This document shows, in pieces, positions 1,090 to 58,690 of a stretch of 64,000 nt of DNA. The translations under genes were made by a program, and so were the position numbers. The stretch's first letter is position 1. The number at the start of each line of letters is the position of its first letter. The notes below the pieces were generated by a model. It did no database searches and was not told the origin of the DNA. It worked only from the letters and a program-made list of their open reading frames with translations. Origin of the DNA: Methylophaga marina (GTDB taxonomy: Bacteria; Pseudomonadota; Gammaproteobacteria; Nitrosococcales; Methylophagaceae); assembly GCF_030296755.1 (NCBI RefSeq), contig NZ_AP027741.1, positions 1,178,001-1,242,000 on the forward strand. Reading direction: 5' to 3'.

Positions 1090-1994
1090 ATGTCCAAACG
1101 TTCGATTATTCACATGCTTAACCCAATGAAGCACAACAGTCCCTTTGACATTAACATGGCACTAGATGCGGGTTACGATGTATTGATTCCATATTCACAT
1201 GTTGAGTTAAACGAAGTTGCAGGTCTAACTCAGGATGCTATTTTTTCACGTGGTCCCTCAGGTGTGAAAAAACCGGCATGTTCATCGGTGGACGTGATAT
1301 CGGATTGGCGATGGACATGTTGGAATCAGCTAAAAAATCCATGGTTCCTCCTTTTGAAATTTCAGTTTTTGCTGATCCAAGTGGTGCTTTCACTACAGCT
1401 GCAGCGTTGGTGGCTTGTGTCGAGCGTGAACTGAAAAATAAATTTAAACAAGAATTAAAAGGCGCTAAAGCCGTTGTCTTCGGTGGAACCGGACCAGTGG
1501 GTATTGCTACAGCAGTTATTGCTGCCCTTCAGGGTGCAGAAACGGCCATTGTTGATCACTTCTCTATTGATACTGCACTAGAGTTTGCTGCAGAAGCCAA
1601 AAAACGCTATGACGTTGATTTACGAGGCACGACAGCGGCTTCTGATGCTGATAAAGCCCGTTTATTGTACGACGCAGACATCGTTTTCTGTGCAGCTAAA
1701 GCAGGGGTCCAGGTACTGAATGCATCTGTTTTACGTGATGCGACTAAACTCAAAGTGGCTGGCGATGTTAATGCCGTGTCACCACTGGGTATCGAAGGCG
1801 TTAAATTGATGGACTTTGGCGCACCGTTGACACATGCCACTAATTCACCTGATGCCGTTGGTATTGGTGCATTAGCTATTGGTGATGTTAAATACAAATT
1901 ACAGCAAGCACTGTTAAGAGAGACATTAGAGTCAGAAAAACCTGTTTATCTTGATTTCCGTAATGCCTTCGATGGTGCGCGTAAATTAGTCTAA
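1090..1994 (+). pseudogene. mtdB: methylene-tetrahydromethanopterin dehydrogenase MtdB, interrupted by a -1 frameshift
   Basis: MtdB oxidises methylene-H4MPT to methenyl-H4MPT with NAD(P)+ in formaldehyde oxidation. Codons 1-61 are read in the frame of ATG 1090 (good AAGGA Shine-Dalgarno). The rest (TGMFIGGRDIG onward, to TAA at 1992-1994) is in another frame. The break lies in a run of six A at 1267-1272. A seventh A would give an uninterrupted protein of about 301 aa, the usual family length. The Rossmann motif FGGTGPVGIATA and the substrate region MFIGGRDIGLAMDML are intact. No remnant suggests decay beyond this base. I read it as a probable homopolymer sequencing error; a real lesion or -1 ribosomal slippage are alternatives. 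It sits 12 bp before the ATP-grasp gene. Confidence 0.85.
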
Positions 1995-2006
1995 TCTCAT
2001 ACAACG

Positions 2007-3125
2007 ATGGATGAAGAGCGGTTACCACTTCTCATTTTTGGTCAAACAGCTCGCTTTATTGCACAGTCAGCGGCTCAGCTTGGATACACAACCTGGGTCG
2101 TTGACTGTTTTGCAGATAGAGATACACAAAAAGTTGCTGATCGATGTATCCGTATCCCTCCCCTAGAACTGCTTTCCATAGAATCCATACTCACATCTTT
2201 TGAACTAATTACCCAACAACAGCGCTGCCTGCTGATTTTTTCTACTGGCATTGAACGCTTCTATGAACTCTTAAACTGCTTGCCCACACATATCCAAATT
2301 CTTGGTAATGATTTTCAAGTATTAGATAAATTAAGATCACCACAACGCTTTTTCCCTCTACTTCAACAACTTGACATTCCTTTTCCAGAAACCCATTGGG
2401 TTCAGGCTTTTGATAAAAAGAAAAAACGTTGGATAACAAAAGATCTGATGGGCAGCGGTGGTACACATATTCAACAGCCGAGTATATCTAACTACGTTGA
2501 TCGCCATCTCATTTTTCAGGAATATATCAATGGTCGGTCAGGCTCAGTCAGTTTTCTTGCTGACGGTGAGTCTGTGTTCATCTTTGGGTTTAACGAACAG
2601 ATACACACAGAAACATTTCAGCTACAGCAAATCATTAATCACTTTGATATCAGCCAGTCTTCTAAAGCAACTCTTGCTAAGGCACTAGAAAAGCTTGTAA
2701 CAGCAATCACTTTTCGCGGTTATGGCAGTCTCGACTTTATGATTGACGAGTTAGCTAATATTTATATCCTTGAGCTGAATCCAAGACTTTCCGCTTCAGC
2801 GGAGCTTTACGCCAATAATACGGATATGTTGCGTTGGCATATTCAGGCTTGTATTGGGAAACTACCTGCTGAAATCCAACAGCAAAATAGTGAAATGACG
2901 AACGTTACCAGTCTCTCATACCTTTTTGCAGATAAAGCATTATTCGTAAAGAGCAAGGCAACGTGGCCTGTTGAGACTCGGGATATTCCCCACGCCAGAC
3001 AGAAGATTCAGCCTGGCGAGCCTGTGTGCACAGTACTTGTTGAAGCTCAATCACATCTGGATTGCGATAATAAACGTCATCAAGTGGAAACTGAGATAAG
3101 GAAAAATTGTCTTTTTTCTGCTTGA
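2007..3125 (+). CDS. ATP-grasp protein of the H4MPT gene cluster
   Basis: ATP-grasp enzymes ligate a carboxylate to an amine or thiol through an acyl-phosphate. Features seen: an N-terminal Rossmann-like start (LLIFGQTARFIAQSAAQLGY), a glycine-rich ATP loop (KDLMGSGGTHI, about 148-158), FQEYINGRSGSVSF (about 170-183), and the metal-binding LELNPRLSAS late in the domain. A short C-terminal extension follows. It begins 12 bp after mtdB and follows beta-RFAP synthase. Homologous ATP-grasp genes are common in methylotroph H4MPT clusters and are suspected to act in cofactor side-chain synthesis, by analogy with archaeal glutamate ligases. The substrate cannot be read from this sequence. Translational coupling with mtdB is likely. 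Confidence 0.75.
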   Translation: MDEERLPLLIFGQTARFIAQSAAQLGYTTWVVDCFADRDTQKVADRCIRIPPLELLSIESILTSFELITQQQRCLLIFSTGIERFYELLNCLPTHIQILGNDFQVLDKLRSPQRFFPLLQQLDIPFPETHWVQAFDKKKKRWITKDLMGSGGTHIQQPSISNYVDRHLIFQEYINGRSGSVSFLADGESVFIFGFNEQIHTETFQLQQIINHFDISQSSKATLAKALEKLVTAITFRGYGSLDFMIDELANIYILELNPRLSASAELYANNTDMLRWHIQACIGKLPAEIQQQNSEMTNVTSLSYLFADKALFVKSKATWPVETRDIPHARQKIQPGEPVCTVLVEAQSHLDCDNKRHQVETEIRKNCLFSA

Positions 3126-3181
3126 AAATAGCAGTGTCTCAACCCATATTAACGATGACTTATTAAGACAGGATCACATGC

Positions 3182-4063
3182 ATGAAACGCATACTACTTT
3201 TTCTTGGTACAAATATCGCTGTACTCGCCGTTCTCAGCATTACAATGCGACTGCTTGGCATAGATAGCCTTTTAGACGAACAAGGCGTCGGTCTGGATAT
3301 GAATGCCTTGATTATTTATGCCGCCGTAATCGGCTTCAGTGGCTCGATCATCTCCCTGCTTATTTCAAAATGGACGGCAAAACATCTGACAGGGGCTCAG
3401 GTCATTGAACAACCTAAAAATGAGACTGAACGATGGTTGCTAAGTACCGTTACCCGCCTGGCGCAACAAGCTAATATTGGTATGCCTGATGTGGCTATTT
3501 ATAACTCACCACAACCGAACGCGTTTGCCACTGGTGCCAATAAAAATAATGCACTAGTGGCTGTCAGCACGGGTTTGATGCAGTCCATGACTCAAGATGA
3601 AGTGGAAGCCGTTCTCGCCCATGAGGTCAGCCATATAGCCAATGGGGATATGGTGACTATGGCTTTAATACAGGGTGTAGTGAACACGTTTGTCATTGTT
3701 CTATCACGTGTGATTGGACATCTCGTTGATCGTACAGTCTTTAAAGTAGAACGAGGTCATGGCCCGGCATTCTGGATTACTTCCATCATCGCAGAACTGG
3801 TACTGGGTATTCTGGCTAGCATTATCGTGATGTGGTTTAGTCGTCAACGTGAGTTTCGTGCCGACGCCGGTGCTGCCAGTTTAGTTGGAGCACCAAAAAT
3901 GGTTGCTGCATTGCAACGCTTAGCTGGCACATCCACCGAAGCGTTACCAGATCAACTTCATGCTATGGGTATTTCTGGTGGCAAAGGTGGTGGTCTTTCA
4001 GCATTATTTATGACGCACCCACCATTGGAAGAGAGAATTAACGCTTTACGCGGAAATAGATAA
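3182..4063 (+). CDS. htpX: membrane zinc protease HtpX
   Basis: HtpX is an M48 inner-membrane metalloprotease that degrades misfolded membrane proteins together with FtsH. The length of 293 aa equals E. coli HtpX. The zinc motif HEVSH is at 147-151 and the third ligand is the Glu of REFRAD at about 224. Transmembrane segments are predicted near 4-24, 38-60, 158-178 and 197-220, the family topology. The start at 3182 is preceded by an in-register CATGC, giving an overlapping ATG at 3178 in another frame that I rejected. A strong bidirectional terminator follows the stop. No CpxR-like site was evident upstream. Confidence 0.95.
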
Positions 4064-4067
4064 AAAT

Positions 4068-4096
4068 AAAGCCGGGCTTCTGACCCGGCTTTTTTT
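4068..4096. terminator. bidirectional Rho-independent terminator between htpX and the fimX-like gene
   Basis: A 6-bp GC-only stem (GCCGGG/CCCGGC, extended by AAA/TTT) with a 7-base loop is followed by eight T on the plus strand. The minus strand carries TTTATTTT after the same stem. It lies between convergent genes. Confidence 0.9.
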
Positions 4097-4104
4097 ACTA
4101 AAGC

Positions 4105-6186
4105 TCACAGCTCGTCATCTTCAAAGTTGTAATTCATTTCAGGTGATGGCTCGTGGATATAATAACCTTGGGCATAATCTACACCTAAGCGCCACAACAG
4201 CGCTAAGCTATTCGCATCTGATACAAACTCCGCGATAGAACGCTTGCCCGCTTCTTTTGTCATTTCAATGATGGCTTTGACAGCTGCCTGATTTTCAACA
4301 TCATGTGCCATATTTTCAACAAATGTACCGTTGATTTTTAGATAATCCACATTAAATGCTTTCAGACTATTTGAGAAATCTATACCCGATCCAAAGTGCT
4401 CTAAACCAAATTCACAGCCCAAGCCTTGTAAACGTTCGATCACGTGCCTGACTTGCTCAACATTATCAATCGCCATTGTCTCACTGACTTCAAAAATAAG
4501 GGCGTGTGCATTCAGCTGTTGTGCTGAAAGTGAAGCGGATAACCAATCTACAAACGCTTCTTCATGAAGACTTTGCTCTGATAATTTGATGAAGAAACGT
4601 GTTTTAGGATAACGTTGACGATGAATGGTTAATGCTTTTAAAGCACTACGAATCACCCACTTATCTATCTCTGTCATCATTTTTAACTGAACAGCATGTT
4701 GGATAAAGCTATCCGCTGCAATCAGTTCGCCATTTACCTCAAGGCGCAATAATACTTCGTAAAATTCCTGCTCTTCACCATGCAAACTGACAATCGGTTG
4801 ATAAAATAAAGTGAAGTTATCGTCCTGCAACGCTTTTTGTAGCTGCTGACGCCAGCTTTCGCTGGACTGCTGTCCAGTTTGATTTGTTTGAGCACGGAAC
4901 CGTATGACCTGGTTTCCACCCGCATGCTGAGCTTTCATCGCCGCTCTATCTGCATTTTCTAACACAGCTTCAGCGGTCAACTGACTTTCATTAACGCGAG
5001 CGATACCAACACTGCAGCGTAAATCTATCGTTTTACCTGCAACATGTGACACGTAGTCATCAATGGTTCTTCGGAAAGACTCTGCGCGCTCATCAACATA
5101 CGTATCGTCATGATTCGGTACGATTATGGTAAAGACCTGATCACCGTAATGGCCGATAACTTCCTGTTCAGCCAAGTTATCGTGCAATAAATCAGACACA
5201 CTCTTCAAAATAACTTCGCTGGTAGCCAGTCCCACTTTTTCTTTTATCGAAAAGAAATCATCCAGTACCAAATAGAGTAGTTGCGCATCGCCCTCACCCT
5301 CAGCAGCACGGTGCACAGTTTTTTCCAACTCAGTAATAAAACGACTACGGTTATATAAGCCGGTAAGTTGGTCATGATCATCCAGTACTGGGATAACAGC
5401 CTTAGGTTGTTGATTGATTACCGTATCGTCTCTGATCACAACCTGAGTGCAATCTTCCCCTTCAACACGAGCGTGACTAAATTGAATTTCTGCCTTGAAG
5501 GTTATGCCTTCTGCTGTTAATCCATTGCCAGTCATCGTCACTGGGGGAGCATCCGTTTGCTCAGTAAACTGTCTGAATACCGCCTTAAATTTAGGATGGT
5601 CATCTGCACTGAATAAATCGAGAATCGGCAGCCCAGCAATATCTTCCGCCTCTTCATAACCAAACAAATTCAGGTAAGCCTGGTTTACATAGATATGCAT
5701 CCCTTCATGCATATAAGCAACAGCATCTCTTGAACTATCAAGCAGTGTTTTAGAGCGTTTCTCACTCTCCCTGAGTGCTCGCTCATTACGTCGGGCTAAA
5801 CGTCTGATAAATAGATTATCCAGCTCGCGATTAATCACAAACTGTAATCGTGGTTTATCTTCAAACAAGACAACATCTTTTACGATGCTCGAAAAGTATT
5901 CCGTTTCATGTGATTTATCATCAGCAATGATGATGCAGGGCAGGTCTTTATCTAGATGCTGTATCAGGTTCAAAATATCCATCGGCTGGATATCAGCGAT
6001 ATTTTCTCGACATAAAATTAATTCCCAATTCTGGGCTGATAACAGCTTTTCAATTGCTGCAGGCTTATCTTCCCTTGTTGCTCTGACCGCATGTCCAGCA
6101 CTACGGAGCACGTTGACGATAGCATCTGCATCGGTCAAAGAACTATCGATAATCAGTACTCGTAAAATGCCTTCTGCTCTCGCCAC
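4105..6186 (-). CDS. FimX-like protein: degenerate REC, PAS, degenerate GGDEF and EAL domains
   Basis: At 693 aa it matches Pseudomonas FimX (691 aa) in length and domain order. The REC domain (about 8-120) has Arg60 where the phospho-acceptor Asp is expected (WELILCREN). A PAS domain spans about 145-255. The GGDEF domain (about 268-430) has YGDQV at 347-351 instead of GGDEF and no RxxD I-site. The EAL domain (about 455-690) has EVL at 477-479 and EHFGSG at 596-601 where active enzymes have DDFGTG. All catalytic signatures are therefore altered. In FimX the dead EAL domain binds c-di-GMP and controls type IV pilus assembly. A role as receptor rather than enzyme is inferred; no pilus gene lies nearby. 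Confidence 0.8.
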   Translation of the reverse strand: MARAEGILRVLIIDSSLTDADAIVNVLRSAGHAVRATREDKPAAIEKLLSAQNWELILCRENIADIQPMDILNLIQHLDKDLPCIIIADDKSHETEYFSSIVKDVVLFEDKPRLQFVINRELDNLFIRRLARRNERALRESEKRSKTLLDSSRDAVAYMHEGMHIYVNQAYLNLFGYEEAEDIAGLPILDLFSADDHPKFKAVFRQFTEQTDAPPVTMTGNGLTAEGITFKAEIQFSHARVEGEDCTQVVIRDDTVINQQPKAVIPVLDDHDQLTGLYNRSRFITELEKTVHRAAEGEGDAQLLYLVLDDFFSIKEKVGLATSEVILKSVSDLLHDNLAEQEVIGHYGDQVFTIIVPNHDDTYVDERAESFRRTIDDYVSHVAGKTIDLRCSVGIARVNESQLTAEAVLENADRAAMKAQHAGGNQVIRFRAQTNQTGQQSSESWRQQLQKALQDDNFTLFYQPIVSLHGEEQEFYEVLLRLEVNGELIAADSFIQHAVQLKMMTEIDKWVIRSALKALTIHRQRYPKTRFFIKLSEQSLHEEAFVDWLSASLSAQQLNAHALIFEVSETMAIDNVEQVRHVIERLQGLGCEFGLEHFGSGIDFSNSLKAFNVDYLKINGTFVENMAHDVENQAAVKAIIEMTKEAGKRSIAEFVSDANSLALLWRLGVDYAQGYYIHEPSPEMNYNFEDDEL

Positions 6187-6196
6187 GGTCGTTACC

Positions 6197-6940
6197 TTAT
6201 TGTTCTTTCTTTTTGTCCAGAAGCATCGGTTTCTTACCTTCCAACTTGGTTTGTTGTATTTCCATCCACTCGAACAACTGCTGATTTAATTCAGCTGCAG
6301 ATAGGCTATCGGTAGCTATCTTCTGACCTATAGTCATTTTTATTACACCAGGGTATTTCAAAAAACCATGTTTGGGCCATGATTTACCGGCATCATGACA
6401 GACAGGAATAACCGGATATCCGGTTTCTTTTGCCAGTCTGGCGCCACCAATTCCAAATCGACCAATATAGCCTTTTGCTATTCTGGTACCTTCCGGAAAA
6501 ATCACCACCCAGGCACCCGATGTTAAACGATCTAAGCCTTGCTCTATCACTTGATTCAGGGCTTTTCGGCCTGCTTTACGGTCTATTGCAATAGGGTTTA
6601 GAGATGCTAATCCCCAACCAAAGAACGGAATCCAGAATAATTCACGCTTTAACACCCAGACCTGAGGCGGAAAAACAGCTTGTAATGCCAGGGTTTCCCA
6701 TGAAGATTGATGTTTACATATGATTACGGCAGGTTCATCACCGATATGCTGACGACCCTCAACTTCGAGCTTTACATGACAAATTTTATCTAATAGCCAG
6801 ATATTGGATTTCGCCCACTGGCTGACGACGGCATAACGCCATTTAAATGGTAAAGGCCATAGCAGAACGCCTAAACAGGAAAACAATACTGCCGTCACCG
6901 CATGCAAAATAAAGAAAATAGTGGATCGAATATAGATCAT
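6197..6940 (-). CDS. plsC: 1-acyl-sn-glycerol-3-phosphate acyltransferase (PlsC family)
   Basis: It acylates lysophosphatidate to phosphatidate at the inner membrane for phospholipid synthesis. Motif I reads KHQSSWE: the His is kept, but Glu replaces the canonical Asp of the H-X4-D pair. This variant occurs in a gammaproteobacterial PlsC subgroup usually found beside gmhB. Motif III is FPEGTR. An N-terminal transmembrane helix covers about 8-28. The start overlaps the gmhB stop by 4 bp (ATGA-type), so the two are translationally coupled in the glyQ-glyS-gmhB-plsC order. Confidence 0.88.
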   Translation of the reverse strand: MIYIRSTIFFILHAVTAVLFSCLGVLLWPLPFKWRYAVVSQWAKSNIWLLDKICHVKLEVEGRQHIGDEPAVIICKHQSSWETLALQAVFPPQVWVLKRELFWIPFFGWGLASLNPIAIDRKAGRKALNQVIEQGLDRLTSGAWVVIFPEGTRIAKGYIGRFGIGGARLAKETGYPVIPVCHDAGKSWPKHGFLKYPGVIKMTIGQKIATDSLSAAELNQQLFEWMEIQQTKLEGKKPMLLDKKKEQ

Positions 6941-7479
6941 TGTAGTTTGCGTTCTAATAGGGCTGTAGCGACACTCGCCAGATCATCATAAACCTCTACA
7001 CCGTCAGGAATGCCTGCAGCTAGAGTCTTCTCACCTTTACCTGTTCTGACCAATATAGGCCTGGCCTGAGATAACATCGCCGCCTGAATATCACGAAGAG
7101 AATCACCCACAGCAGGTACATTGTCCAGATTCACACGTAAACGATGGGCTAGATCCACGAAAGAGCCATTCTTTGGCTTGCGACATTGACAATCATCTTC
7201 CGGACCATGAGGACAAAACATGATCGCCTCAATTTTGCCACCAACCTGAGCCAGCATACGACGCATTTTGCTGTGAATACGGTTTAAGGTTTCTACATCA
7301 AACAAACCGCGCGCGATACCAGATTGATTGGTAATCACTACCACCCGGTATCCCGCATAATTTAATCGAGCAATCGCTTCGAGGCTGCCGTCAATCGGCT
7401 CCCACTCTGCCGGATTTTTAATGAAATCATCCGAATCATGATTGATGACGCCATCTCGGTCCAGAATAATCAGCGACAT
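6937..7479 (-). CDS. gmhB: D-glycero-beta-D-manno-heptose 1,7-bisphosphate 7-phosphatase
   Basis: This HAD-family phosphatase removes the C7 phosphate from heptose 1,7-bisphosphate on the way to ADP-heptose for LPS core. The nucleophile motif LDRDGVIN is near residues 6-13. The motif ITNQSGIARG follows. The Cys/His zinc site shows CPHGPEDDCQCRKP. The 180-aa length is normal. The start follows AGGAG with 5 bases between, 11 bp after glyS. Housekeeping HAD phosphatases acting on histidinol phosphate look similar, but the zinc loop and length favour GmhB. Confidence 0.88.
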   Translation of the reverse strand: MSLIILDRDGVINHDSDDFIKNPAEWEPIDGSLEAIARLNYAGYRVVVITNQSGIARGLFDVETLNRIHSKMRRMLAQVGGKIEAIMFCPHGPEDDCQCRKPKNGSFVDLAHRLRVNLDNVPAVGDSLRDIQAAMLSQARPILVRTGKGEKTLAAGIPDGVEVYDDLASVATALLERKLQ

Positions 7480-7490
7480 AATTGCTCCTG

Positions 7491-9569
7491 TTACTCCTGC
7501 AAGCAGGAAATATCGGCAACCCCTAAAAATAAGGCTCGGGTTTGATTGAGTAAGGCTAATCGATTGTTTCTCACTGCCTCATCATCAGACATTACCATGA
7601 CTTGCTCAAAAAAAGCATCGATGGTTTCACGCATGCCGGCAAGATAATTCAGAATGCCCGCATAATCTGATGCAGCATAGAGAGGCTTCAAGGCTTGTTG
7701 TGCCTCCACAACCTGTTCAGCCAGCGCTTTTTCAGCTGGTTCAACTAACAGGCCAGGCTCAACAACCAGGCCTTCTTGCTCAGCCTCATTTTTACGCAAA
7801 ATATTACCAATACGCTTATTACCGGCTGCCAGCGATTCTGCTTGCTCCAATTTTCTAAACTCGGCTACAGCATTCAGTCTTTGCATGAAATCAAGCGGTT
7901 GCGTTGGTGATACTGCCAGCACTGACTCGTATTCATCCGCTTTAGCCCCTTGGTCGATAACATAACCACGCAGACGGTCGTAAAAATACTGCATCACCTG
8001 AGTTCTCACATCATCTTCAGTCAGAATATCAACAAAGTTGTTGACCGCTTCAGAGATAAGCTCGAACAGATCAAGTGACAGTTGACGCTCAATAATAATA
8101 CGCAGCACACCTAATGCCGCACGTCGTAAGGCAAACGGGTCTTTAACACCAGAAGGCGGCTGGCCAATACCAAACAGACCAACAATCGTATCCAGTTTTT
8201 CGGCTAAACTGACGGCAATACCAGTCGCTGTTTGCGGCAGCTCATCACCGGCAAAACGTGGACGATATTGCTCGTCCAGTGCTTCCGCGACATCAGTAGG
8301 CTCACCATCCAATTGAGCATAATAACGGCCCATAATACCCTGTAATTCGGGGAACTCACCGACCATTTCCGTGACAAGATCACATTTTGCTAATAATGCT
8401 GCACGCTCAGCTAACTGAGCCTCACTTCCCATCTGCTGTGCAATAATGGCGGCTAATGCGGCAACACGCTGAGATTTGTCATAAACCGTGCCTAACTTAT
8501 TCTGGAACACAATGGTTTTTAACTGTTCTTGGCGAGCAGCCAAAGGTGACTTGCGATCTGTTTCCCAGAAAAAGGCCGCATCACTCAGTCGTGGCAGAAT
8601 CACACGTTCATTACCGGCAATCACTTGTGCCGGATCCTGACTAGCGATATTACAGATAGTGATGAAATGCGGCAGTAAATCCCCATTCTTTGCTCGTACC
8701 GCGAAATATTTCTGATGACCTTCCATTGATGAAATCAACGCTTCAGGAGGTAATTCTAGAAAACGCTGATCAAAGTTACCTGCTAGGGCCACGGGCCACT
8801 CCACTAAGCCAGTCACTTCCTCAAGTAACTCAGGATTAATCACGGCATCACCACCGAGGCTGGCTGCCAGTTCATTTACCTGCCCATGAATCGCCTGTTT
8901 TCTGGCTTCGTAATCCACCATCACATGGCCTTCTGTTTCCAGTTGTGGTGCATAAGTCATCGGTGTGCTGATACGGATAGGTTGAGGATGGTGGAAACGA
9001 TGACCAACCGTAAAACGGTCTGCGCTCACGCCGAGTAATTCGACAGGAACAATGTCATCCCCTAGTAACACAACCAACCAGTGAACAGGACGAACAAACT
9101 CACCCGGCAAGTCGCCCCAGCGCATACGCTTGGGAATGGGTAAAGCATTTAACGATTGCTGAATGATGTCTGGCAATAAAGTGGCGGTTTCAGCCCCTTT
9201 TTGCTGTTGTCTGAAGATCAACCATGCGCCTTTTTCTGTCTGCATCGTTTCCAAATCATCAACATCCACGCCACAAGAACGAGCGAAGCCTTGTAAGGCT
9301 TTGGTCGGATTACCATCTTCATCAAATGCGGCGGTTACGGCCGGGCCACGTCGTTCTACAGTGAGATCATCTTGTTGCGTTTGTAACTTCGAAATCACTA
9401 AAGCCAAACGTCTTGGTGTAGCGTAAGCACGAAGTGCATCAAAGCTTAGCTCAGCATTTTTTAGGCCTTGTTCAACCCCTTGGTGAAATGCCTGACTCAA
9501 TTTCAACAAAGCCTTCGGCGGTAATTCTTCTGTGCCTATCTCAATAAGCAAATCCTGAGTCTGACTCAT
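7491..9569 (-). CDS. glyS: glycyl-tRNA synthetase beta subunit
   Basis: This is the beta chain of the alpha2-beta2 bacterial glycyl-tRNA synthetase, which carries the tRNA-binding and HD/anticodon-binding regions. The 692-aa length is typical (E. coli 689). The N-terminus reads [15 protein letters not shown], and internal family blocks PKRMRWG and FVRPVHWLV are present. Its ATG overlaps the glyQ stop by 4 bp, so equal synthesis of both subunits is favoured. Confidence 0.96.
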
Positions 9570-10504: not shown

Positions 10505-10674
10505 TAGCTCGATTTCACAATCCAAAGTCAAAACATACGGGATTATAGCGAATACAGAGCTGACTGTAGAGGTCGACAGCAGATAAATCTGATACGAGAA
10601 AGCCTGAGCACACATTTTCCTCGCCACTCCATTGTCACCATTCAGGTACAATTCACCATCTGAGTCAGGCAATC

Positions 10675-11631
10675 ATGAGAGTGACTATGCAACGAACCAT
10701 TGGCATCGTTATGGATCCGATCGATCGGATTAATACCAAAAAAGACAGTAGTCTTGCGATGATGCTAGCCGCGCAGCAGCGAGACTGGCAGATTTTATAT
10801 ATGGAACAGCAAGACCTTTTTCTATCTGAGGGAAAAGTTTTTGCTGAAATGCGCAGTCTTCGCGTGTTTGATGACCGGCAGCACTGGTTTGAACTGGGTG
10901 AAAAAGTCACTCGACCCATCACTGATGTAGAAGCCATATTGATGCGTAAAGATCCGCCATTTGATATGGAATATATCTACAGCACTTATTTGCTGGAACA
11001 AGCTCAGGCTAATGGCGTGCTTATTATCAATGATCCACAAAGCCTGCGTGATGCCAATGAAAAACTCTTTACCGCCTGGTTTCCACAATGCTGTCCTCCC
11101 ACTCTGGTGACACGCCAGAAACATCTGATAAAAGATTTCCAGCAGACGCATGGCGATATTATTCTTAAGCCACTTGATGGCATGGGTGGCGCGTCGATAT
11201 TCCGCATCAATCAGGGCGATCCTAATTTCTCAGTTATCGTCGAAACGCTGTCAGAACATGGAAAACGTTCGGTCATGGCGCAAAAGTATTTGCCGGCAAT
11301 CAAAGACGGCGACAAACGTATTCTGTTGATAAATGGTGAGCCGGTGCCTTACGCCCTGGCCCGTATCCCAGCTGAAGGTGAAACGCGCGGCAACCTTGCT
11401 GCAGGTGGGCGAGCCGAAGGTCGGCCACTGACTGACAGGGATCGTTGGATCTGCGAGCAAGTTGGCCCCAAACTACGCGAAAAAGGCTTAATTTTTGTCG
11501 GACTGGACGTCATTGGTGATTATCTGACAGAGATAAATGTCACCAGCCCGACCTGTATCCGTGAACTTGATAGACAATTTGGTATCAATATTGGTGCCGA
11601 CTTAATGACAGCGATAGATAAACTTTTATGA
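10675..11631 (+). CDS. gshB: glutathione synthetase
   Basis: It ligates gamma-glutamylcysteine and glycine with ATP in the cytoplasm. This is an ATP-grasp enzyme of the GshB family with IVMDPIDRINTKKDSS at the N-terminus. DIILKPLDGMGGASIF forms the ATP loop, and LTEINVTSPTCIRELD carries the metal-binding and substrate residues. The 318-aa length matches E. coli (316). ATG 10675 and ATG 10687 (MQRTIGIVMD) are both possible; the second matches the family start more exactly. Glutathione is also the usual formaldehyde-trapping thiol, which fits a methylotroph. Its stop overlaps the apbE start (ATGA). Confidence 0.95.
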   Translation: MRVTMQRTIGIVMDPIDRINTKKDSSLAMMLAAQQRDWQILYMEQQDLFLSEGKVFAEMRSLRVFDDRQHWFELGEKVTRPITDVEAILMRKDPPFDMEYIYSTYLLEQAQANGVLIINDPQSLRDANEKLFTAWFPQCCPPTLVTRQKHLIKDFQQTHGDIILKPLDGMGGASIFRINQGDPNFSVIVETLSEHGKRSVMAQKYLPAIKDGDKRILLINGEPVPYALARIPAEGETRGNLAAGGRAEGRPLTDRDRWICEQVGPKLREKGLIFVGLDVIGDYLTEINVTSPTCIRELDRQFGINIGADLMTAIDKLL

Positions 11632-12662
11632 TGAAACTCTTTCCTCTTTTATTAATTCTAGTAGCCCTACTCACCGCTTGTGGAGAACCACAAGAAAGCG
11701 CCCGCCAGGCGAAGTTCTATGCCTTTGGTACTGAGATTGATGTCAGCCTTTATGGCGTAGATGCTGAAACAGCTGAAAAAACCGTTGATGCTTTGGAAGA
11801 CTCATTCAACGCCATCAACGACACCTGGCATGCCTGGAAACCCAGCACCTTAACTCGAATAAATAAAGCTATCGCGAATGGCGAACCAGTTGAAATCAAA
11901 CCTCAAGTCGCTGCCGTTATCGAAGAAGCGGCCACCTATGCCAAGGAAAGTCATCATTTATTCAACCCGGCCGCTGGTAAATTATTTGAGCTCTGGGGTT
12001 ACCATCGTGATGATTGGTTTGAATCGCGCCCGCCACCCGCTCAAGACAAAATCGACGCCTGGTTAAAAGCCGCCCCCAGTATGGAAAATATTCATATTCA
12101 AGATAATATTCTGACCAGTGATAATCCTATGGTGAAACTGGGCTTTGGTGGTTTTGCCAAAGGCACAGCGGTAGATGCCGCTATTGAGGCACTGAAAAAA
12201 CAAGGTGTGAATAATGCCATCATCAATATCGGTGGCGATTTACGTGCTATTGGTAAGCATGGTCATCGCCCTTGGGTCATTGGTATTCGTCACCCACGCA
12301 AAGAAGCCGCAATGCTGGCTTCCGTAGCCGTTTCGGGTGATGAAAGTGTTTTCACCTCGGGTGACTACGAAAGATTCTTCACCTATGAAGGTAAACGTTA
12401 TCCTCATATATTGGACCCAAGAACAGGTTATCCGGCTCAGGATAATATCTCTGCAACGGTTATTCATCAGCAAGCCGCTCGTGCTGATGCCGCAGCGACC
12501 GCATTAATCGTGGCTGGCAAAGACTGGCCAGAGATTGCCGCATCAATGGGTATTAAGGAAGTGATGATTGTTCGAACTGATGGTCAAGTCGAAATGACCC
12601 CATCCATGCAGAAAAAATTCATTTTACTGACAAATCAACTCAACCGATTTTACGTGAAATAG
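11628..12662 (+). CDS. apbE: FAD:protein FMN transferase, lipoprotein
   Basis: ApbE proteins transfer FMN from FAD to Thr residues of flavoproteins such as NqrB/NqrC and RnfG/RnfD. A lipoprotein signal peptide ends in LLTAC with Cys18, so the mature protein sits in the periplasm. The DAETAEKTVDAL helix region, GFGGFAKGTAVDAA, INIGGDLRAIG and HILDPRTGYP are family blocks. The 344-aa length is normal. It is coupled to gshB by a 4-bp overlap; no Nqr or Rnf genes are visible here, so its target is elsewhere. Confidence 0.92.
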   Translation: MMKLFPLLLILVALLTACGEPQESARQAKFYAFGTEIDVSLYGVDAETAEKTVDALEDSFNAINDTWHAWKPSTLTRINKAIANGEPVEIKPQVAAVIEEAATYAKESHHLFNPAAGKLFELWGYHRDDWFESRPPPAQDKIDAWLKAAPSMENIHIQDNILTSDNPMVKLGFGGFAKGTAVDAAIEALKKQGVNNAIINIGGDLRAIGKHGHRPWVIGIRHPRKEAAMLASVAVSGDESVFTSGDYERFFTYEGKRYPHILDPRTGYPAQDNISATVIHQQAARADAAATALIVAGKDWPEIAASMGIKEVMIVRTDGQVEMTPSMQKKFILLTNQLNRFYVK

Positions 12663-32339: not shown

Positions 32340-33118
32340 TTATTTTGCCAGCTCGTAGTCGTAATCAATAATAAGTGGTGCATGATCTGAAAATGACTCG
32401 TCTCGATAGATTTCAGTTGCTTTAACTTTGCCTTTCATACTTGGCGTTAAGATATGGTAATCAATGCGCCATCCGACGTTGTTCGCTCTGGCCTGACCAC
32501 GGTTTGACCACCAAGTATATTGGTGTTCTTCCTGAGGTAACTCACGGAAGGCATCAATAAAGCCCATGTCATCAAACAACTTGTCTAGCCAGGCTCGTTC
32601 TTCAGGCAGGAAGCCTGAATTTTTCAAATTGCCTTTCCAGTTACGAATATCTTCATTTTTATGTGCAATATTCCAATCGCCGCAGATTAAGACATCGCGA
32701 CCGGAATCTTTCATTTCCTGCATTTTTATTTCGAAAAAATCCATGCAGCGATACTTAACCAATTGACGCTCTTCTTTTGATGATCCTGAGGGCATATACA
32801 GTGAAATGACGCTCAAATTACCAAAACGCGCTTCGATATAACGACCTTCTGCATCAAACTCCTCATTGCCCATACCAACAATGACTTCATCGGGCTCTGC
32901 TTTGCAATACAATGCCACACCGCTGTAGCCCTTTTTTCAGCATCATGGTAATAACAGTGATATCCTTGCGGCCTGAAAATATCATCTTCGAGTTGATGAA
33001 CTTGGGCTTTGGTTTCCTGAATACAGACAACATCTGCGTTTTGTTTAGGCAACCAGTCAAAAAAACCTTTACGGGCGGCGGCTCGAATACCGTTCACATT
33101 GGCTGTGATTATGCGCAT
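32340..33118 (-). pseudogene. exodeoxyribonuclease III (ExoA/XthA family), interrupted by a -1 frameshift
   Basis: AP endonuclease/3'-5' exonuclease of base-excision repair. The N-terminal part MRIITANVNGIRAAARKG and CIQETK (metal Glu) runs in one frame to HDAEK. The remainder (GVALYCKAEPDEV, SLYMPSG, CGDWNIAH, SDHAPLIIDY with the catalytic Asp-His) is in another frame. The junction is a run of six T at 32932-32937 (A on the coding strand). A seventh would restore 259 aa, with EKKGYSGVALY as the expected join. All catalytic blocks survive, so a sequencing error in a working gene is the likeliest explanation. Confidence 0.87.
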
Positions 33119-37719: not shown

Positions 37720-38804
37720 ATGATCTCAAACAGTGACATTTTAAATGCCAGAATTCTTATTGTTGATGACCAGCTCGTCAACATTAAATTACTGGAGAAG
37801 ATGCTGCATCAGGCTGGTTTCACTTCTCTTTTTTCTACGACACGAGGTGCGGAAGTAGAACAGCGTTATTTTGAATACGAAATCGATCTCATCCTACTGG
37901 ATATTCGCATGCCGGATATGGATGGTTTTCAGGTAATGCAAACACTACAAACAGCGATTCAGAACGATTACCTGCCAGTTCTCGTTATTACTGCAGAACT
38001 TACTCAGGAAATCAGAAAAAATCGCTCTGTTCCGGTGCCAAAGATTTCATCACCAAACCCTTTGATCAAACTGAAGTGATCCAACGTATCAGAAACATGC
38101 TGGAAGTCCGCTTGTTACACAAACAGGTAAAGACGCAGAATGAAACACTTGAACAACAGGTCAGACACAGGACACAACAGCTAGAACAAAGTCGTCTTGA
38201 AATTATTAAACGCTTAGGCAGGGCTGCAGAATATAAAGACAATGAAACCGGCAATCACATATTGCGTATGAGCCATTTTGCGCAAATGCTAGCGCTTGCT
38301 ACAGGTTTAGATGAGAGTTTTGCCGCTGATATACTGACTGCGGCGCCAATGCATGATATTGGAAAAATCGGTATTCCAGACCATATTCTCCTTAAACCTG
38401 GAAAGTTAGATGGTGACGAGTGGGAAGTGATGAAAACACACGTCAGGATTGGGGCTGATCTATTAGCTGATACGAATGTGCCGCTACTCAAACTGGCCAG
38501 CAATATTGCACTGACTCATCATGAAAAATGGGACGGTTCAGGTTACCCACAGGGTTTAAAAGGCAAGGATATTCCCATTGAAGGCCGCATCTGTTCCATA
38601 TCGGATGTTTTTGATGCGTTGACGTCTGAGCGTCCATACAAGAAAGCCTGGCCAATTGAAAAAGCCGTCGATTATCTCATTGAACAAAAAGGTCGACATT
38701 TTGATCCAGAGTTAGTGACACACTTTCTTACGATCATCGAACAAGTCCTTCATTACCGTGCCCGCTTCCCTGATCATGTCGCAGAAACATCCGATATGGC
38801 TTAA
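37720..38804 (+). pseudogene. REC/HD-GYP response regulator (c-di-GMP phosphodiesterase type), interrupted by a -1 frameshift
   Basis: The REC domain (ILIVDDQLVNIKLLEKML, phospho-Asp in LILLDIRMPDMDG) reads to ITAELTQEIRK. The frame then changes, and the rest (SGAKDFITKPFDQ, a coiled linker, then HD in HDIGKIGIPDHIL and GYP in [11 protein letters not shown]) is in the other frame. The break is a run of six A at 38016-38021. A seventh gives an RpfG-like protein of 361 aa with a perfect REC continuation. HD-GYP enzymes hydrolyse c-di-GMP to GMP. A probably intact paralogue lies at 62784. I take this to be a working gene with a sequencing error. Confidence 0.87.
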
Positions 38805-38849: not shown

Positions 38850-39158
38850 ATGACTATGGCTCAAATATATAAATATCACTTATTCTTCTGTACTCATCAG
38901 CGAGACGATGGCAGTGCTAATTGCGGAGAACATGGTTCACAGTCGCTTCGTGATTACGCAAAACAACGTGTGAAAGAACTAAAAATAAAGAAAGTCCGGG
39001 TGAATAATGCAGGATGTCTAAATCGATGCAAGCTGGGACCTATGCTAGTTATCTATCCTGAAGGGACTTGGTATCACTTTGAAACTGAAGCAGATATTGA
39101 TGAAATCATTGAGTCCCACTTGTTAAACAACACGATTGTGGAACGCCTGGTTAAATGA
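38850..39158 (+). CDS. thioredoxin-like [2Fe-2S] ferredoxin
   Basis: A small protein of about 102 aa with the thioredoxin-like 2Fe-2S fold. The four Cys ligands are seen as C-x(n)-C (FFCTHQRDDGSANCGEHGS) and NAGCLNRCKLGP. The open frame can begin at 38826, but MTMAQIYKYHLFFC from ATG 38850 (or 38856) fits the family better. Its stop overlaps the hpnD start by 4 bp, so it is translationally coupled to squalene synthesis genes. A redox role for the reductive step of HpnE or related enzymes is possible but unproven. Confidence 0.85.
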   Translation: MTMAQIYKYHLFFCTHQRDDGSANCGEHGSQSLRDYAKQRVKELKIKKVRVNNAGCLNRCKLGPMLVIYPEGTWYHFETEADIDEIIESHLLNNTIVERLVK

Positions 39159-40060
39159 CGCCGGATCAATACTGTCGCGACAAAGCAGCAAAAAGTGGCT
39201 CAAGCTTTTATTACAGCTTTATGTTCTTACCGCCACAACGACGCCAGGCCATCACTGCGTTATACGCTTTTTGTCGAGAGGTCGATGATGCTGTTGATGA
39301 AATAGCGGATCCAGAAGTCGCGGCACAAACCTTAGCTTGGTGGCGAACGGAAGTAGAGAATATATTCAACAAAACAGCCACACATCCAGTTGGTAAAGCC
39401 TTAGAAGAAGCACTTCAGCATTTCGAGCTGCATCAAGAATATTTCCTTGAAATTATTGATGGCATGGAAATGGACTTATACCAACACAGATATGAGGCAT
39501 TTAAACATCTTGCGTTGTATTGTCATCGTGTTGCCAGTGTTGTCGGGTTACTTGCTGCAGAGATTTTTGGTTATCAACACCGCCAGACGCTTAAATATGC
39601 AGAAAAACTGGGGTTGGCTTTTCAGTTAACCAATATTATTCGTGATGTTCGTGAAGATGCTGAGCGTGGCCGTATCTATTTACCTCAAGAGGATATGGAC
39701 CAATTTGGTGTTAAAGCAGATGACATCCTGGCACTTAAGCAAACACCAGAACTAACCGCTCTTCTGGCCTTTGAAACGGATCGTGCCCGTACTTTTTATC
39801 AAGAAGCAAAAGGCTTGTTACCTCCTGAAGATCGTTACGCTCAGCGCACCGGACTCATTATGTCTGCTATCTATGAAGCGACACTTGATGAAATAGAAAA
39901 AGACCAGTTTCGCGTGATGAAACAGCGCGTCTCTTTAACGCCCTTAAAAAAACTCTGGTTAGCCTGGCGTACATCCAGAGCAGAAAAAAACATCAACAAT
40001 GACCACCATAATTGTTGGCGGCGGCTGGAGTGGACTTGCTGCTGCTGTGCGTTTACTTGA
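39155..40060 (+). CDS. hpnD: presqualene diphosphate synthase HpnD (3' end probably shifted by a missing base)
   Basis: HpnD condenses two farnesyl diphosphates to presqualene diphosphate in the HpnCDE route to squalene. The Asp-rich motifs DDAVDE and DVREDAERGRIYLP are present, together with LGLAFQLTNIIRDV. As sequenced the protein ends with a Cys/Trp-rich tail unlike the family, overlapping hpnE by 62 bp. If one A were added to the seven-A run at 39984-39990, the frame would end AEKKHQQ with TGA at 40000-40002, overlapping the hpnE ATG as ATGA (282 aa). I consider that the true end. Confidence 0.88.
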   Translation: MTPDQYCRDKAAKSGSSFYYSFMFLPPQRRQAITALYAFCREVDDAVDEIADPEVAAQTLAWWRTEVENIFNKTATHPVGKALEEALQHFELHQEYFLEIIDGMEMDLYQHRYEAFKHLALYCHRVASVVGLLAAEIFGYQHRQTLKYAEKLGLAFQLTNIIRDVREDAERGRIYLPQEDMDQFGVKADDILALKQTPELTALLAFETDRARTFYQEAKGLLPPEDRYAQRTGLIMSAIYEATLDEIEKDQFRVMKQRVSLTPLKKLWLAWRTSRAEKNINNDHHNCWRRLEWTCCCCAFT

Positions 40061-45619: not shown

Positions 45620-47864
<2,245 letters not shown>

Positions 47865-47868
<4 letters not shown>

Positions 47869-48248: not shown

Positions 48249-48251
48249 TCC

Positions 48252-48269: not shown

Positions 48270-48384
48270 TTTACCGTATTCTGGCCTAAGGCTCGCAACT
48301 GATTGTTTAATGAGGAAAATAGCATTCAATCTTATGCCTGTCATAGCGAATGCAAATCACTGACAAACAAACTGTTATCAAGCA

Positions 48385-49428: not shown

Positions 49429-49466
49429 AAAGCCTCCTGTAAAGAAAAATTTATTTTGAGGTGAGC

Positions 49467-50921: not shown

Positions 50922-50932
50922 ATGAAACTCCT

Positions 50933-52120: not shown

Positions 52121-52165
52121 GATGATTTTCCTCGTGAATAATTAAAATTGTGACTTTCATCACAA

Positions 52166-52193
52166 AGTATAACGTTCTAGAACAGTTTGACCA
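52166..52193 (-). promoter_or_regulatory. promoter of pgk-pyk-fba with an embedded palindrome
   Basis: On the minus strand TGGTCA (4/6 of -35) and TATACT (5/6 of -10) are separated by 16 bp. The spacer contains the perfect 10-bp palindrome GTTCTAGAAC (52174-52183), which would be a good site for a repressor. The operator role is inference. Confidence 0.5.
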
Positions 52194-52199
52194 TAAAAA

Positions 52200-52225
52200 A
52201 AGGCTTTCTGGATTCAGAAAGCCTT
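52200..52225 (-). terminator. terminator after gap
   Basis: An 11-bp stem (AAGGCTTTCTG/CAGAAAGCCTT) with a GATT loop is followed on the minus strand by seven T. The plus strand also has a T run after a short gap. Confidence 0.92.
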
Positions 52226-52251
52226 CGTTTTTTTATTGGAAAAAGAATGAA

Positions 52252-53280
<1,029 letters not shown>

Positions 53281-53341
53281 CTAAGAACTGAAATCTCAGT
53301 TTGAAATTTCACTTATTAGACTTTCGAGCTTTAGAGAGAGA

Positions 53342-53367
53342 AAACCAGTGAGCAGATGCCCACTGGT
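53342..53367 (-). terminator. hairpin between tkt and gap
   Basis: An 8-bp stem (AACCAGTG/CACTGGTT) with a 10-base loop is followed on the minus strand by TTTTCTCTC. It could be a weak terminator or attenuator after tkt. The remaining 85 bases up to gap show no gene. Confidence 0.5.
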
Positions 53368-53402
53368 TCAATCTCTTTACTTCATTTCTAAACCAGTAAT
53401 AA

Positions 53403-55391
53403 TTACAGTACTGATTTAACTGTCTTAACGACATTTTCAACGGTGAAGCCGAAGTGTTTCATCAACACACCACCTGGCGCAGATTCACCAAATGTGTCGA
53501 TACCAACAACACCACCTTCCAGGCCAACATACTTGCGCCAGAAGTCAGTCACACCCGCTTCAACAGATACACGTTTAACACCTGGTGTTAATACGCTGTC
53601 TTTGTAAGCTTGGTCTTGACGATCAAACACGTTAGTTGAAGGCATAGAAACAACGCGTGCTTTCACACCGTCAGCTTTCAGTTCTTCTTGTGCTTTAACC
53701 GCTAAGTCAACTTCAGAACCTGTCGCGATAATGATGACATCCGCTGCGCCGCCTTCTGCTTCAGACAGAACATAAGCACCTTTACGGATACCTTCAAAGT
53801 CAGCTGTGTCGTGTTTACGACCAGGAATACCTTGACGGCTTAATACTAAGCTTGAAGGACCATCTTTACGTTCAACCGCAGCAACCCAAGCAACAGCCAC
53901 TTCAGTTTCATCAGAAGGACGCCATACATCCATGTTAGGAATGTAACGCAGACCTGCTGTGTTTTCGATTGGTTGGTGAGTAGGACCGTCTTCACCCTGA
54001 CCGATAGAGTCATGAGTTAAAATAGCGATTGTGCGTTGTTTCATCAATGCCGCCATACGCAGTGCAGACTTAGCATAGTCAGAGAACATGTGGAACGTAC
54101 CACCGTAAGGCAGTAAACCACCGTGCAGTGCCATACCATTCATGATGGCATACATACCAAACTCACGAACACCGTATGAAATGTAGTTACCTGACTCTTT
54201 ACCAGAAACATGTTTGAAGCTTGAACAGCTTGTCAGATTAGAACCTGTTAAGTCAGCAGAACCACCGATAAATTCTGGTAATTCAGGTGCTAAAGCAGTG
54301 ATAACGTTTTGTGATGCTTTACGTGAAGCAACGCTTTCTGCTTTATCGTTGAAATCAGCGATCATTTTATCTGTGAATTGTTTCCAGTCAGCGGGTAATT
54401 CACCTGCCATGCGGCGTTTAAATTCAGCAGCTAATTCTGGGTATTCAGCAGCATAAGCGTCGAATTTTTTGTTCCATTCAGCTTCCGCAGCATCACCTTT
54501 CGCTTTCGCATCCCAACCCGCATAAACGTCTTCAGGAATAACAAAAGGTTCGTAGTCCCAACCTAACTCTTTACGAGTTAATGCAACTTCTTCTTCACCT
54601 AATGCCGCACCATGACAATCATGGCTAGCAGATTTGTTTGGTGAACCGAAACCAATGATGGTTTTACAGCAAATCAATGACGGTTTGTCAGTCACTTTTT
54701 TCGCTGCTTCAATAGCTGCATTGATTGCATCAGAGTCGTGACCATCTACTGATTGAACGTGCCAGCCGTAAGCTTCGAAACGTTTAACAGTGTCATCTGT
54801 GTACCAGCCATCAATGTGACCGTCGATAGAGATGTTGTTGTCATCCCAGAATGCGATCAGATTACCCAGACCCCATGTACCAGCAAGAGCACATGCTTCA
54901 TGAGAAACACCTTCCATTAAACAACCATCGCCCATGAAGACATAAGTGTGGTGGTTAACGATGTCATGACCTGGCTTGTTGAATTGATCAGCCATCAGTT
55001 TTTCAGCCATCGCAAAACCAACACCGTTGGTGATACCTTGACCTAATGGACCTGTTGTTGTTTCAACACCTGGTGCATAACCATACTCTGGGTGACCTGC
55101 ACATTGTGAATGTAATTGACGGAATGTTTTGAGTGAATCCATTGGCAAGTCATAACCTGACAAATGCAACAATGAATAAATCAACATTGAACCGTGACCA
55201 TTAGATAGGATGAAACGGTCACGATCAGCCCAATTTGGGTTATTTGGGTTGTGTTTTAAATGGTCATTCCATAACACTTCGGCAATATCTGCCATACCCA
55301 TAGGCGCACCGGGGTGACCCGAGTTTGCCTTTTGTACTGCATCCATGCTGAGCGCACGGATTGCATTAGCTAAATGTCTACGTGTAGCCAT
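53403..55391 (-). CDS. tkt: transketolase
   Basis: Thiamine-diphosphate enzyme moving two-carbon units; central to regenerating ribulose 5-phosphate for formaldehyde fixation. The ThDP/Mg blocks [20 protein letters not shown] and DDNNISIDG, the His-rich [19 protein letters not shown] at the N-terminus and the Pyr-domain [10 protein letters not shown] are present. The 662 aa equal the E. coli length. The start ATG follows TAGGAGAA. It is 25 bp after the redoxin gene. Confidence 0.96.
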
Positions 55392-55416
55392 TATCTACAT
55401 TCTCCTATTAAAAAAA

Positions 55417-55971
55417 TTAAGCTGCCCGCCATTTGATCGAGCAACCCATACTAGGTATTTGATTTTCTGGGCCGTGGCCTGTTTCTGCCACTTGTTTCAT
55501 TGCTTCAAACAAATCTCGTCTGACATCAGATGCTGCGGCTTCTTTTCTACTGGCATCCAAACGACCGCGATATTGTAGTTGCAAATCACTGTTATAACCA
55601 AAAAAATCGGGTGTGCAGACTGCACCATAAGCCTGGGCAACCTGTTGTGTTTCGTCGTACAGATATGGAAATGAGAACGCTTGCTGTATCGCAAGCTGTT
55701 TCATATTGTCGAACGCGTCTTCAGGGTACTCGTTCACATCATTAGACATAATCGCGACAGAATTGATACCTAATGCTTTCAACTCATTCGTATCACGTAC
55801 CAATCTATCTATTACCGCTTTTACATAAGGGCAATGGTTACAAATGAACATAACTAACAATCCATTTTCACCACGACAGTCTTCTAATGTCCAGATTTTA
55901 CCGTCTGTTCCTGGCAGAGAAAAATCCACAGCAGGCAAACCAAATTCACAGACTGGTGTCTCTAAAGCCAT
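55417..55971 (-). CDS. thioredoxin-like/AhpC-TSA redoxin
   Basis: Redoxin-fold protein of 184 aa with the N-terminal LPAVDFSLPGTDGKIWTLED strand block and a single-pair site region FICNHCPYVKAV, where NHCPYVKA is typical of the thioredoxin-family proteins often annotated as peroxiredoxin-like. A later block is GVVCTPDFFGY-like (AVCTPDFFGYN). Its reducing partner is unknown. It is the first gene of the tkt group, only 25 bp before tkt, and may be co-transcribed. Confidence 0.85.
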   Translation of the reverse strand: MALETPVCEFGLPAVDFSLPGTDGKIWTLEDCRGENGLLVMFICNHCPYVKAVIDRLVRDTNELKALGINSVAIMSNDVNEYPEDAFDNMKQLAIQQAFSFPYLYDETQQVAQAYGAVCTPDFFGYNSDLQLQYRGRLDASRKEAAASDVRRDLFEAMKQVAETGHGPENQIPSMGCSIKWRAA

Positions 55972-56336
55972 AAACGCTCACTACAGTTATACTTTATGTC
56001 GTTTAAGATGAAAAACGACGCATGAAACTCTTTTGGAGTTCTGCATATTACCAGACAATTTACATAATGCGAAATGAAGCTGTCAGCGATTTTTAGCCTT
56101 GCCCTTTGCGATGATCTGTAAAAAAAGTAATGACTTAGATGAGGCACCGATGAAATTCCTCTCAGCCAATCGCAGCAGAAATAGAACAATTTCTGGCACT
56201 GCGCGGTTTCTTTGATCGCCTCAAGCTGAACATCGCATATTAAGGTGAACTGTTATCACTTCATGCCAACATCATGTTTTAATGTATTTATTGAATTACT
56301 ACCTTTAATCAGGTTCATTTCCTAGCTGAGAATTTC
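55972..56336. other. 365-bp gap with a possible broken mini-ORF
   Basis: This gap separates the divergent redoxin and PBP1B genes. No tRNA, sRNA or clear promoter was recognised. On the plus strand an ATG at 56111 opens a frame through 56161, and a neighbouring frame then reads QPIAAEIEQFLALRGFFDR to a stop at 56241-56243. It could be a decayed 43-aa gene, but the two halves need a one-base change outside a homopolymer. Confidence 0.3.
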
Positions 56337-58690
56337 ATGGCTCAAAAAAAGCGCCCTCTAAAAAGCGTACCCGCTCAAAAAAATCACCACGTAGAAAAAA
56401 ACAAACGGGGTTTATCAGCCGCTCAAGTTTGCTGAAAATTGCTTTTACTCTACTGGTTCTACTTGGATTATTAACCCTATTCCTTGATGTTCAGATTCGT
56501 AGTCAGTTTGAAGGCAAGCGCTGGGCTGTTCCTGCCAAGGTATATGCTCGCCCATTAGAGTTGTATGCTGGGGCTCCGCTCTCACTCTCCGACCTGAAAA
56601 TTGAATTAAAAGGGTTAGGGTATCAATTTCGTTCAAAAGCCGCACAGCCTGGCCAGGCCGCCTTCTCCTCATCGAAGGCCATCATCGCCACTCGTGGCTT
56701 TCGTTTTAGCGATGGCATGGAGCCGGCAAGAAAACTCATTCTCGACTTTAATGCTGAAGGTGTAACACGCCTAAGAGATTATCAAGGTCAGGATGTGCCA
56801 CTGGTTCGCCTTGAACCTGTTCTGATAGGAGGCATCTACCCACTTAATAATGAAGACCGGGATCTTATTCAGTTAAAAGATGCCCCTCCGATGTTGAGCG
56901 AAGCTTTAATCGCTATCGAAGACAGAGATTTTTACCAGCATCATGGCATCTCCCCCAAAGGCATAGCCCGAGCTATGGTTGCCAATATTAAGGCTGGTAG
57001 TTTTGTTCAGGGCGGTAGTACCCTGACTCAACAGCTTATTAAGAACTTCTATCTCACCTCTGACCGTAGTCTGGTTAGAAAGCTACTCGAAATTCCGATG
57101 GCTTTATTGTTAGAGCTGCACTACGACAAAGATGACATTTTGGAAGCCTATCTGAATGAAGTCTATCTGGGACAAGATGGCGCACGAGCCATTCATGGTT
57201 TTGGTTTGGGTGCACATTACTTTTTCGCACAACCGCTACAAGAGTTAAAACTGCATCAGTTAGCATTACTTGCCGGCCTAGTGAAGGGGCCTTCTTATTA
57301 CGACCCAAGACGCCACCCTGAGCGGGCAAAGAATCGACGCAATCTGGTGCTAAAAGTGTTATATGAGCAAGATAAAATTACACAACAACAATATCAGCAA
57401 GCGAGAAACGCCAACCTTGATGTTGTCGAGAAAGGTACACTTTTAAAAGAAGCGTATCCAGCCTTTTTGGACTTAGTGAAAAGACAGTTACGTCGTGATT
57501 ATCGTGATGAAGATCTGAACTCAGAAGGGCTACGGGTCTATACCAGCCTGGATCCGATCACTCAACGTCATGCTGAGTCATCTTTAAAATCCACCATTGC
57601 GAGTCTGCAACAACACCATGGCTCTAAATTAAAATCGCTACAGGGCAGTATGGTAGTGACAGACCCACAAACGGGTGAAGTCCTAGCGGTCATCGGTGAC
57701 AAAAATACACGTTATAAAGGCTTTAATCGCGCATTGGACTCTGTACGCCCCATCGGCTCGTTGGTAAAACCTGCCGTGTATTTAACAGCCTTAGAACAAG
57801 GTAAAACACTGGCCAGTATGGTGGATGATTCAAGCTTCACTCTGACACTTCCCAATGGTCAAACATGGAAACCACAAAACTTCAGCAAACAATCCCATGA
57901 GGATGTTTTACTGATTGATGCCTTAGCCCACTCTTACAACATAGCTACCGTTCGCCTTGGAATGGAAGCAGGTTTGGATGAGGTCATTAATACGTTGAAC
58001 CGATTAGGCATTAAACGTCAGCTCGATGCCTACCCCTCGCTCTTATTAGGTGCTCAGGGCTTATCTCCGCTTGAAGTCGCGACAATGTATCAAACCATTG
58101 CTGCCAATGGTTTTCAGACCCCTGCCCGAGCTATTCGCACGGTCACAGACAGTCAAGGTGAAGCGCTATCCAGCTATCCATTCCAACTGCGTCAGACTAT
58201 CGATGCAGATGATGTTTATCTGATTCAAACAGCCATGCAAGAAGTCACTCACAGTGGCACGGCTGCCAGCATTTACTCCAGCTTACCCAGTCATATCAAT
58301 ACTGCCGGTAAGACGGGCACAACCGATGATCAACGAGATAGCTGGTTTGCGGGTTTCAGCAATAATCGTCTCGCCGTGGTATGGCTTGGTCAGGATGATA
58401 ATTCCCCCTTACCATTCACCGGTTCAGGCGGAGCGTTGCGTGTCTGGAAAAACTTTATGAGGAGTCAGCCTCTGGAATCGTTTGAGGCACCATTGCCTGA
58501 CGATATAAAATGGCTCTGGATAGACACACAAACGGGCTTTTTATCCGCTCAAGAATGTGAACATTCCCGACAACTGCCTTTCATCTCGGGAACAGAGCCT
58601 GTCGAGATGTCTGAATGTGTCACTCAGCCAGGACAGCAATCTAATCCGGTGACTCGGTCACTGGACTGGATTAAAGATTGGTTTCAATAA
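56337..58690 (+). CDS. mrcB: penicillin-binding protein 1B (bifunctional peptidoglycan synthase); N-terminus frameshifted
   Basis: Class A PBP with a short basic cytosolic tail, one membrane helix, the UB2H-like domain (about 60-160), glycosyltransferase domain (EDRDFYQHHGISPKGIARA, GGSTLTQQLIKNF) and transpeptidase domain (RPIGSLVKPAVYLTAL, SYNIA, KTGTTDD). As sequenced, the main frame starts only at TTG 56429. The better start is ATG 56337, whose frame is lost at a seven-A run (56344-56350). One more A gives MAQKKAPSKKRTRSKK joined to the main frame, 784 aa. It polymerises and cross-links peptidoglycan in the periplasm. Confidence 0.92.

Follow-up and report, generated by a model that had tools for sequence, protein, structure and literature searches.

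Homopolymer runs one base short point to systematic consensus error behind apparent frameshifts in a Methylophaga marina genome assembly

Here we present evidence, drawn from the pattern of indels, that the genome assembly of Methylophaga marina almost certainly holds a systematic consensus error in which homopolymer runs are called one base short. The window analysed is a stretch of 64,000 nucleotides (bases 1178001-1242000) of this genome, which is a single contig of 3,106,976 bases listed as 99.74% complete. Under such an error the probability of an undercall would be near zero for A/T runs of five, about 15% at seven and 56% at eight, and for G/C runs it would climb from about 3% at five to 52% at six, with each undercalled run inside a gene breaking its frame. 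A systematic undercall would also mean that five genes previously reported as interrupted, together with about forty others in the compared part of the genome, are most likely intact in the organism. The fault appears to lie in the reads or the consensus and not in the DNA, and we infer a long-read consensus without full correction as its source. A preliminary description of the window had read five missing bases as homopolymer undercalling, and this reading was borne out by the direction of the losses, their dependence on run length, their equal rates in coding and non-coding A/T7 and A/T8 runs, the breaks in gyrB and dnaG, the pN/pS ratios, and the frames that stay open both in another assembly of the species and in nearly all the congeners examined.

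The sole other genome labelled as the same species is a metagenome assembly (G038), of which contig C14 was used. It aligned to the window from end to end at 98.4% identity, with 1,031 mismatches and nine indels, and the window was the shorter at all nine. Eight of these were single-base losses from A/T runs (three were A7 in G038 and A6 in the window, three A8 and A7, one T7 and T6, and one A5 and A4), six of them genic and two intergenic, and the ninth was a three-base, in-frame difference. The nine sites, in window coordinates, are as follows:

1267-1272, plus strand: A6 run in mtdB, one base shorter than in G038
12612-12617, plus strand: A6 run near the end of the apbE-like gene (ORF 11628-12662), A7 in G038
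32932-32937, minus strand: T6 run (plus-strand letters) in the exonuclease III gene, T7 in G038
38016-38021, plus strand: A6 run in the gene of a REC/HD-GYP response regulator, one base shorter than in G038
39984-39990, plus strand: A7 run closing hpnD (ORF 39155-40060), A8 in G038
53341-53344, no strand: intergenic A4 run, A5 in G038
55410-55416, no strand: intergenic A7 run, A8 in G038
56344-56350, plus strand: A7 run at the mrcB start (PBP1b; listed ORF 56429-58690), A8 in G038
56377-56383, plus strand: A7 run in mrcB, where G038 is longer by three bases, in frame

The preliminary description had listed the runs of mtdB (1267-1272, A6), exonuclease III (32932-32937, T6), the response regulator (38016-38021, A6), hpnD (39984-39990, A7) and the mrcB start (56344-56350, A7), with base, length and coordinates all correct, and had proposed a single deletion in each and a comparison with another strain. 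In that comparison all five were full-length in G038, and the window was exactly one base below it at each. As a total, five falls short of the eight single-base losses in the window, and the run at 12612-12617 was absent from the earlier list. The claim that the losses fall in A/T homopolymers holds for these eight; beyond the window it does not, since in the flanking sequence G/C runs lose bases as well, and do so at smaller run lengths. Within the window there is a single G/C run of six. The assertion that no substitutions lie between the flanking blocks was too strong, as base differences from G038 occur in all six genes (mtdB 1, the apbE-like gene 15, exonuclease III 2, the response regulator 11, hpnD 7 and mrcB 71). 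Counted by codon, the six genes carry 90 synonymous and 16 nonsynonymous changes, and no stop is created.

Three of the genes are split between two frames. The product of mtdB belongs to the methylene-tetrahydromethanopterin dehydrogenase family, and its two ORFs (1090-1434 and 1278-1994) both match Pfam Mpt_N, a match that does not discriminate mtdA from mtdB. Exonuclease III is divided into minus-strand ORFs 33118-32813 and 32918-32340, both matching Exo_endo_phos, and the G038 protein matches NCBIfam TIGR00633. The response regulator is divided into ORFs 37720-38079 and 38076-38804, which carry Pfam Response_reg and HD_5, respectively. At hpnD, residues 1-279 of 282 match and the window frame then extends to 301 residues, the end and the stop alone being altered; NCBIfam TIGR03465 (HpnD) was matched on the first 238 residues of the G038 protein. 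The natural stop/start overlap that had been predicted upon restoring this run is present in G038, where by coordinate arithmetic the stop of hpnD shares bases with the following ATG (ATGA, window 39999-40002). The apbE-like gene (Pfam ApbE match) is followed through the final residue of the G038 protein by the three nearest congeners, G012, G014 and G022, but by the window only to residue 331 of 351. Altered at their ends only, hpnD and the apbE-like gene add little alone. In mrcB the window is open from residue 4 onward with the ATG out of frame; ORF 56429-58690 carries transglycosylase and transpeptidase domains, and the G038 protein passes the NCBIfam TIGR02071 PBP_1b cut-off. The three-base, in-frame difference at window 56383, within the lysine-rich N-terminus of mrcB, is likely true strain variation.

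A wider sample came from the rest of contig C14, with 409,100 bases of the M. marina contig (13% of its 3,106,976) set against 412,379 of G038. The alignment spanned 389,348 columns with 8,119 mismatches and 123 indels, the indels being counted in the six alignments of more than 10,000 columns, with nine shorter ones (133 to 441 columns) left out. Among single-base indels in which the longer run was at least six, 59 were shorter in our genome and five in G038 (binomial p 9e-13), while below a run length of five the corresponding numbers were 17 and 13. The rate of loss from A/T runs was 2/1,223 at five, 5/410 at six, 25/172 at seven, 14/25 at eight and 1/2 at nine, and that from G/C runs 4/121 at five, 12/23 at six and 2/5 at seven; the A/T9 and G/C7 classes are too small to extend the length trend. 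G/C runs therefore fail at shorter lengths than A/T runs. A and T behaved equally (A7 13/90, T7 12/82). When the strands were folded together, A7 followed by G was lost in 17 of 52 cases and otherwise in 8 of 120 (p 3e-5), a post hoc comparison of an effect that could in principle stem from a polymerase. Two small predicted genes (G038:C14 327223-327954 and 390027-390215) depart from the general picture in that their frameshifting indels are mostly insertions in our genome, some of two bases; these are likely true strain differences or doubtful ORFs.

Real losses would be purged from genes by selection, and this was not seen at the lengths where losses are common: at A/T7, 20/139 coding and 5/33 non-coding runs were shortened (Fisher p 1.0), and at A/T8, 7/11 and 7/14 (Fisher p 0.69), which argues against real losses. 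At A/T6 the counts were 4/358 coding and 1/52 non-coding. G/C runs of six to seven, nearly all of which are coding, were lost in 14/27 coding cases and 0/1 non-coding. The A/T5 losses depart from this indifference (0/1,090 coding against 2/133 non-coding); since both are non-coding, these two losses, of which one lies at window 53341, may reflect real variation between strains.

Genes were predicted on the whole G038 contig as the longest non-overlapping ORFs of at least 60 residues, so that a handful of the short ORFs may not be real genes, and the total of 395 includes some outside the aligned stretches. With that reservation, 59 of the 395 carry a frameshifting indel, 46 of them through loss from a run of at least five. 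NCBIfam scans of the 46 covered 41 proteins at full length or one residue less, and two in part (hpnD, 238 of 282 residues, and another of which 1,192 of 1,422 were scanned), with three outside the scans; outside the window the limit was a strict E of 1e-50, at which several proteins had no match. The run-loss genes include gyrB, dnaG, plsY, murJ, priA, hisF and pyrB, as well as a PQQ-dependent dehydrogenase of the methanol/ethanol family. Without working gyrB and dnaG a cell is not expected to be viable. The gyrB frame is broken near its middle, and in dnaG the first ~30 residues lie in another frame. A search for second copies of gyrB, dnaG and mtdB found no intact one for gyrB, whose sole other match in the genome, an open frame of 43% identity, is probably parE, no other copy at all of dnaG, and only a 34% identical upstream relative of mtdB. 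We rejected tsaD as a further broken essential gene, its break lying at about 10% of the ORF, just before the TsaD match, which starts at residue 41 of 373. For pN/pS we took genes no shorter than 450 bases in which 80% or more of the codons aligned; the ratio was 0.068 in 44 broken genes and 0.074 in 249 intact ones, giving no indication that selection is relaxed in the broken set, although a very recent break would leave no such trace. Codons reading as stops in our genome numbered none in the 44 and three in the 249.

Congeners offered a control at equal divergence. G014 and G022, at 98.49% identity, differed over 68,909 columns by six multi-base indels and a lone single-base indel, which lies in an A/T run, so that the single-base load was 1 per 68,909 between them against 8 per 64,000 between the window and G038. 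Compared with G012, and again with G014, the window was shorter at four single-base differences in A/T runs of at least six and longer at none, whereas G038 showed no such differences from either, in either direction. Because the window is short against these congeners and G038 is not, and because the control pair is nearly clean, the excess belongs to the window's assembly. The more distant pair G012 and G014 (88.15% identity) has two single-base indels in A/T runs, in addition to 37 others of a single base, and run indels thus do arise between species. Across the genus, 22 of 24 genomes gave a match to exonuclease III; leaving out our own, the frame is uninterrupted across residues 1-253 of 259 or more in 20 of them and across 221 in G003. 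The G038 frames of the regulator, hpnD, the apbE-like gene and mrcB run through in G012, G014 and G022; several of the more distant mrcB loci are truncated at ends or match only from some residues in, and are thus little informative on the mrcB start.

Other explanations start from runs that are truly short. Replication-slippage frameshifts, for example in a mismatch-repair-deficient lineage, would make the interrupted genes true pseudogenes. Slippage likewise increases with run length, true pseudogenes arising from it occur in mutator or decaying genomes, and the compared sequence resembles them in its one-base run changes, which rise with run length, and in a one-sided excess restricted to the longer runs. 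It differs from them in being nearly one-directional (59 of 64 events), in losing bases from A/T7 and A/T8 runs with equal frequency inside and outside coding sequence, in striking gyrB and dnaG, which would be left without an intact second copy, and in the low pN/pS of the broken genes, where neither relaxed selection nor, in 44 of them, a stop was found. We therefore regard true slippage as very unlikely. In some bacteria A and T runs this long are known to be slippery, and the frame of truly short runs could be restored by transcriptional slippage or programmed ribosomal frameshifting. Such restoration would be needed by about 46 genes in 13% of the genome; intergenic and G/C runs are shortened as well, G038 and nearly all congeners examined have the open frame, and the interruption conserved among relatives that programmed frameshifting leads one to expect was not found for mtdB or exonuclease III in the genus genomes. 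We give this explanation next to no chance, and a strain with short runs genome-wide, in gyrB and dnaG among others, that survives through pervasive transcriptional slippage would be hardly believable.

It could also be that the window is correct and that G038, as a metagenome-assembled genome, over-calls its runs. The G038 frames of the six window genes agree with those of G012, G014 and G022, and it is the window, at four A/T runs of at least six, and not G038, at none, that is short against G012 and G014, which makes over-calling extremely unlikely. Homopolymer undercalling in the window's assembly has its own counter-evidence, in that five differences with a longer run of at least six go the opposite way and the reference G038 is itself a metagenome assembly.

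Systematic indel errors in homopolymers have been described for nanopore bacterial assemblies in the Homopolish paper (PMC8011154), and the present assembly resembles those described there and in the Kastor paper (PMC12007338) in its homopolymer-concentrated indels, frameshifts and surplus pseudogenes. In two Homopolish tables raw Flye drafts have mostly insertions and only some polished versions mostly deletions (PMC8011154), so that, on those tables, the deletion-only pattern of the window is unlike such a raw draft. The Kastor paper reports mostly false deletions, most often at A/T runs and about half as often at G/C, with most deletions after runs of four to five (PMC12007338); measured against those run lengths, losses here are common only at seven to eight A/T or six G/C. 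A Methylophaga bin built from Illumina-polished R9.4.1 reads is mentioned in another paper (PMC12614181), with no link to the present genome.

Biologically the finding is ordinary; its use is to warn those who work with this genome. With one letter apt to be lost from long runs, its apparent pseudogenes are not to be trusted, and the apparent frameshifts in 46 of 395 predicted genes include genes of C1 metabolism and replication. Pseudogene counts, pathway reconstructions and protein sets taken from the genome will be in error as long as its run lengths have not been verified against accurate reads.

The mtdB locus is open in 22 of 24 genus genomes, a set that includes our own and G038, and is split in our own and in G009. 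The break in G009 falls at a different run, a T7 that is six bases or fewer in the others aligned; this copy (L108, G009:C1:2194508-2195416) carries an additional T in a run that lies ~20 bases upstream of where the window has its A run. G009 has no intact second mtdB, only a 34% relative, and its split is possibly another sequence error. In our genome the protein 34% identical to MtdB, over residues 4-299 of 301, is encoded at G000:C1:1177146-1177988, ending 13 bases before the window and lying ~1.1 kb upstream of mtdB, and G009 carries such a relative at a similar distance.
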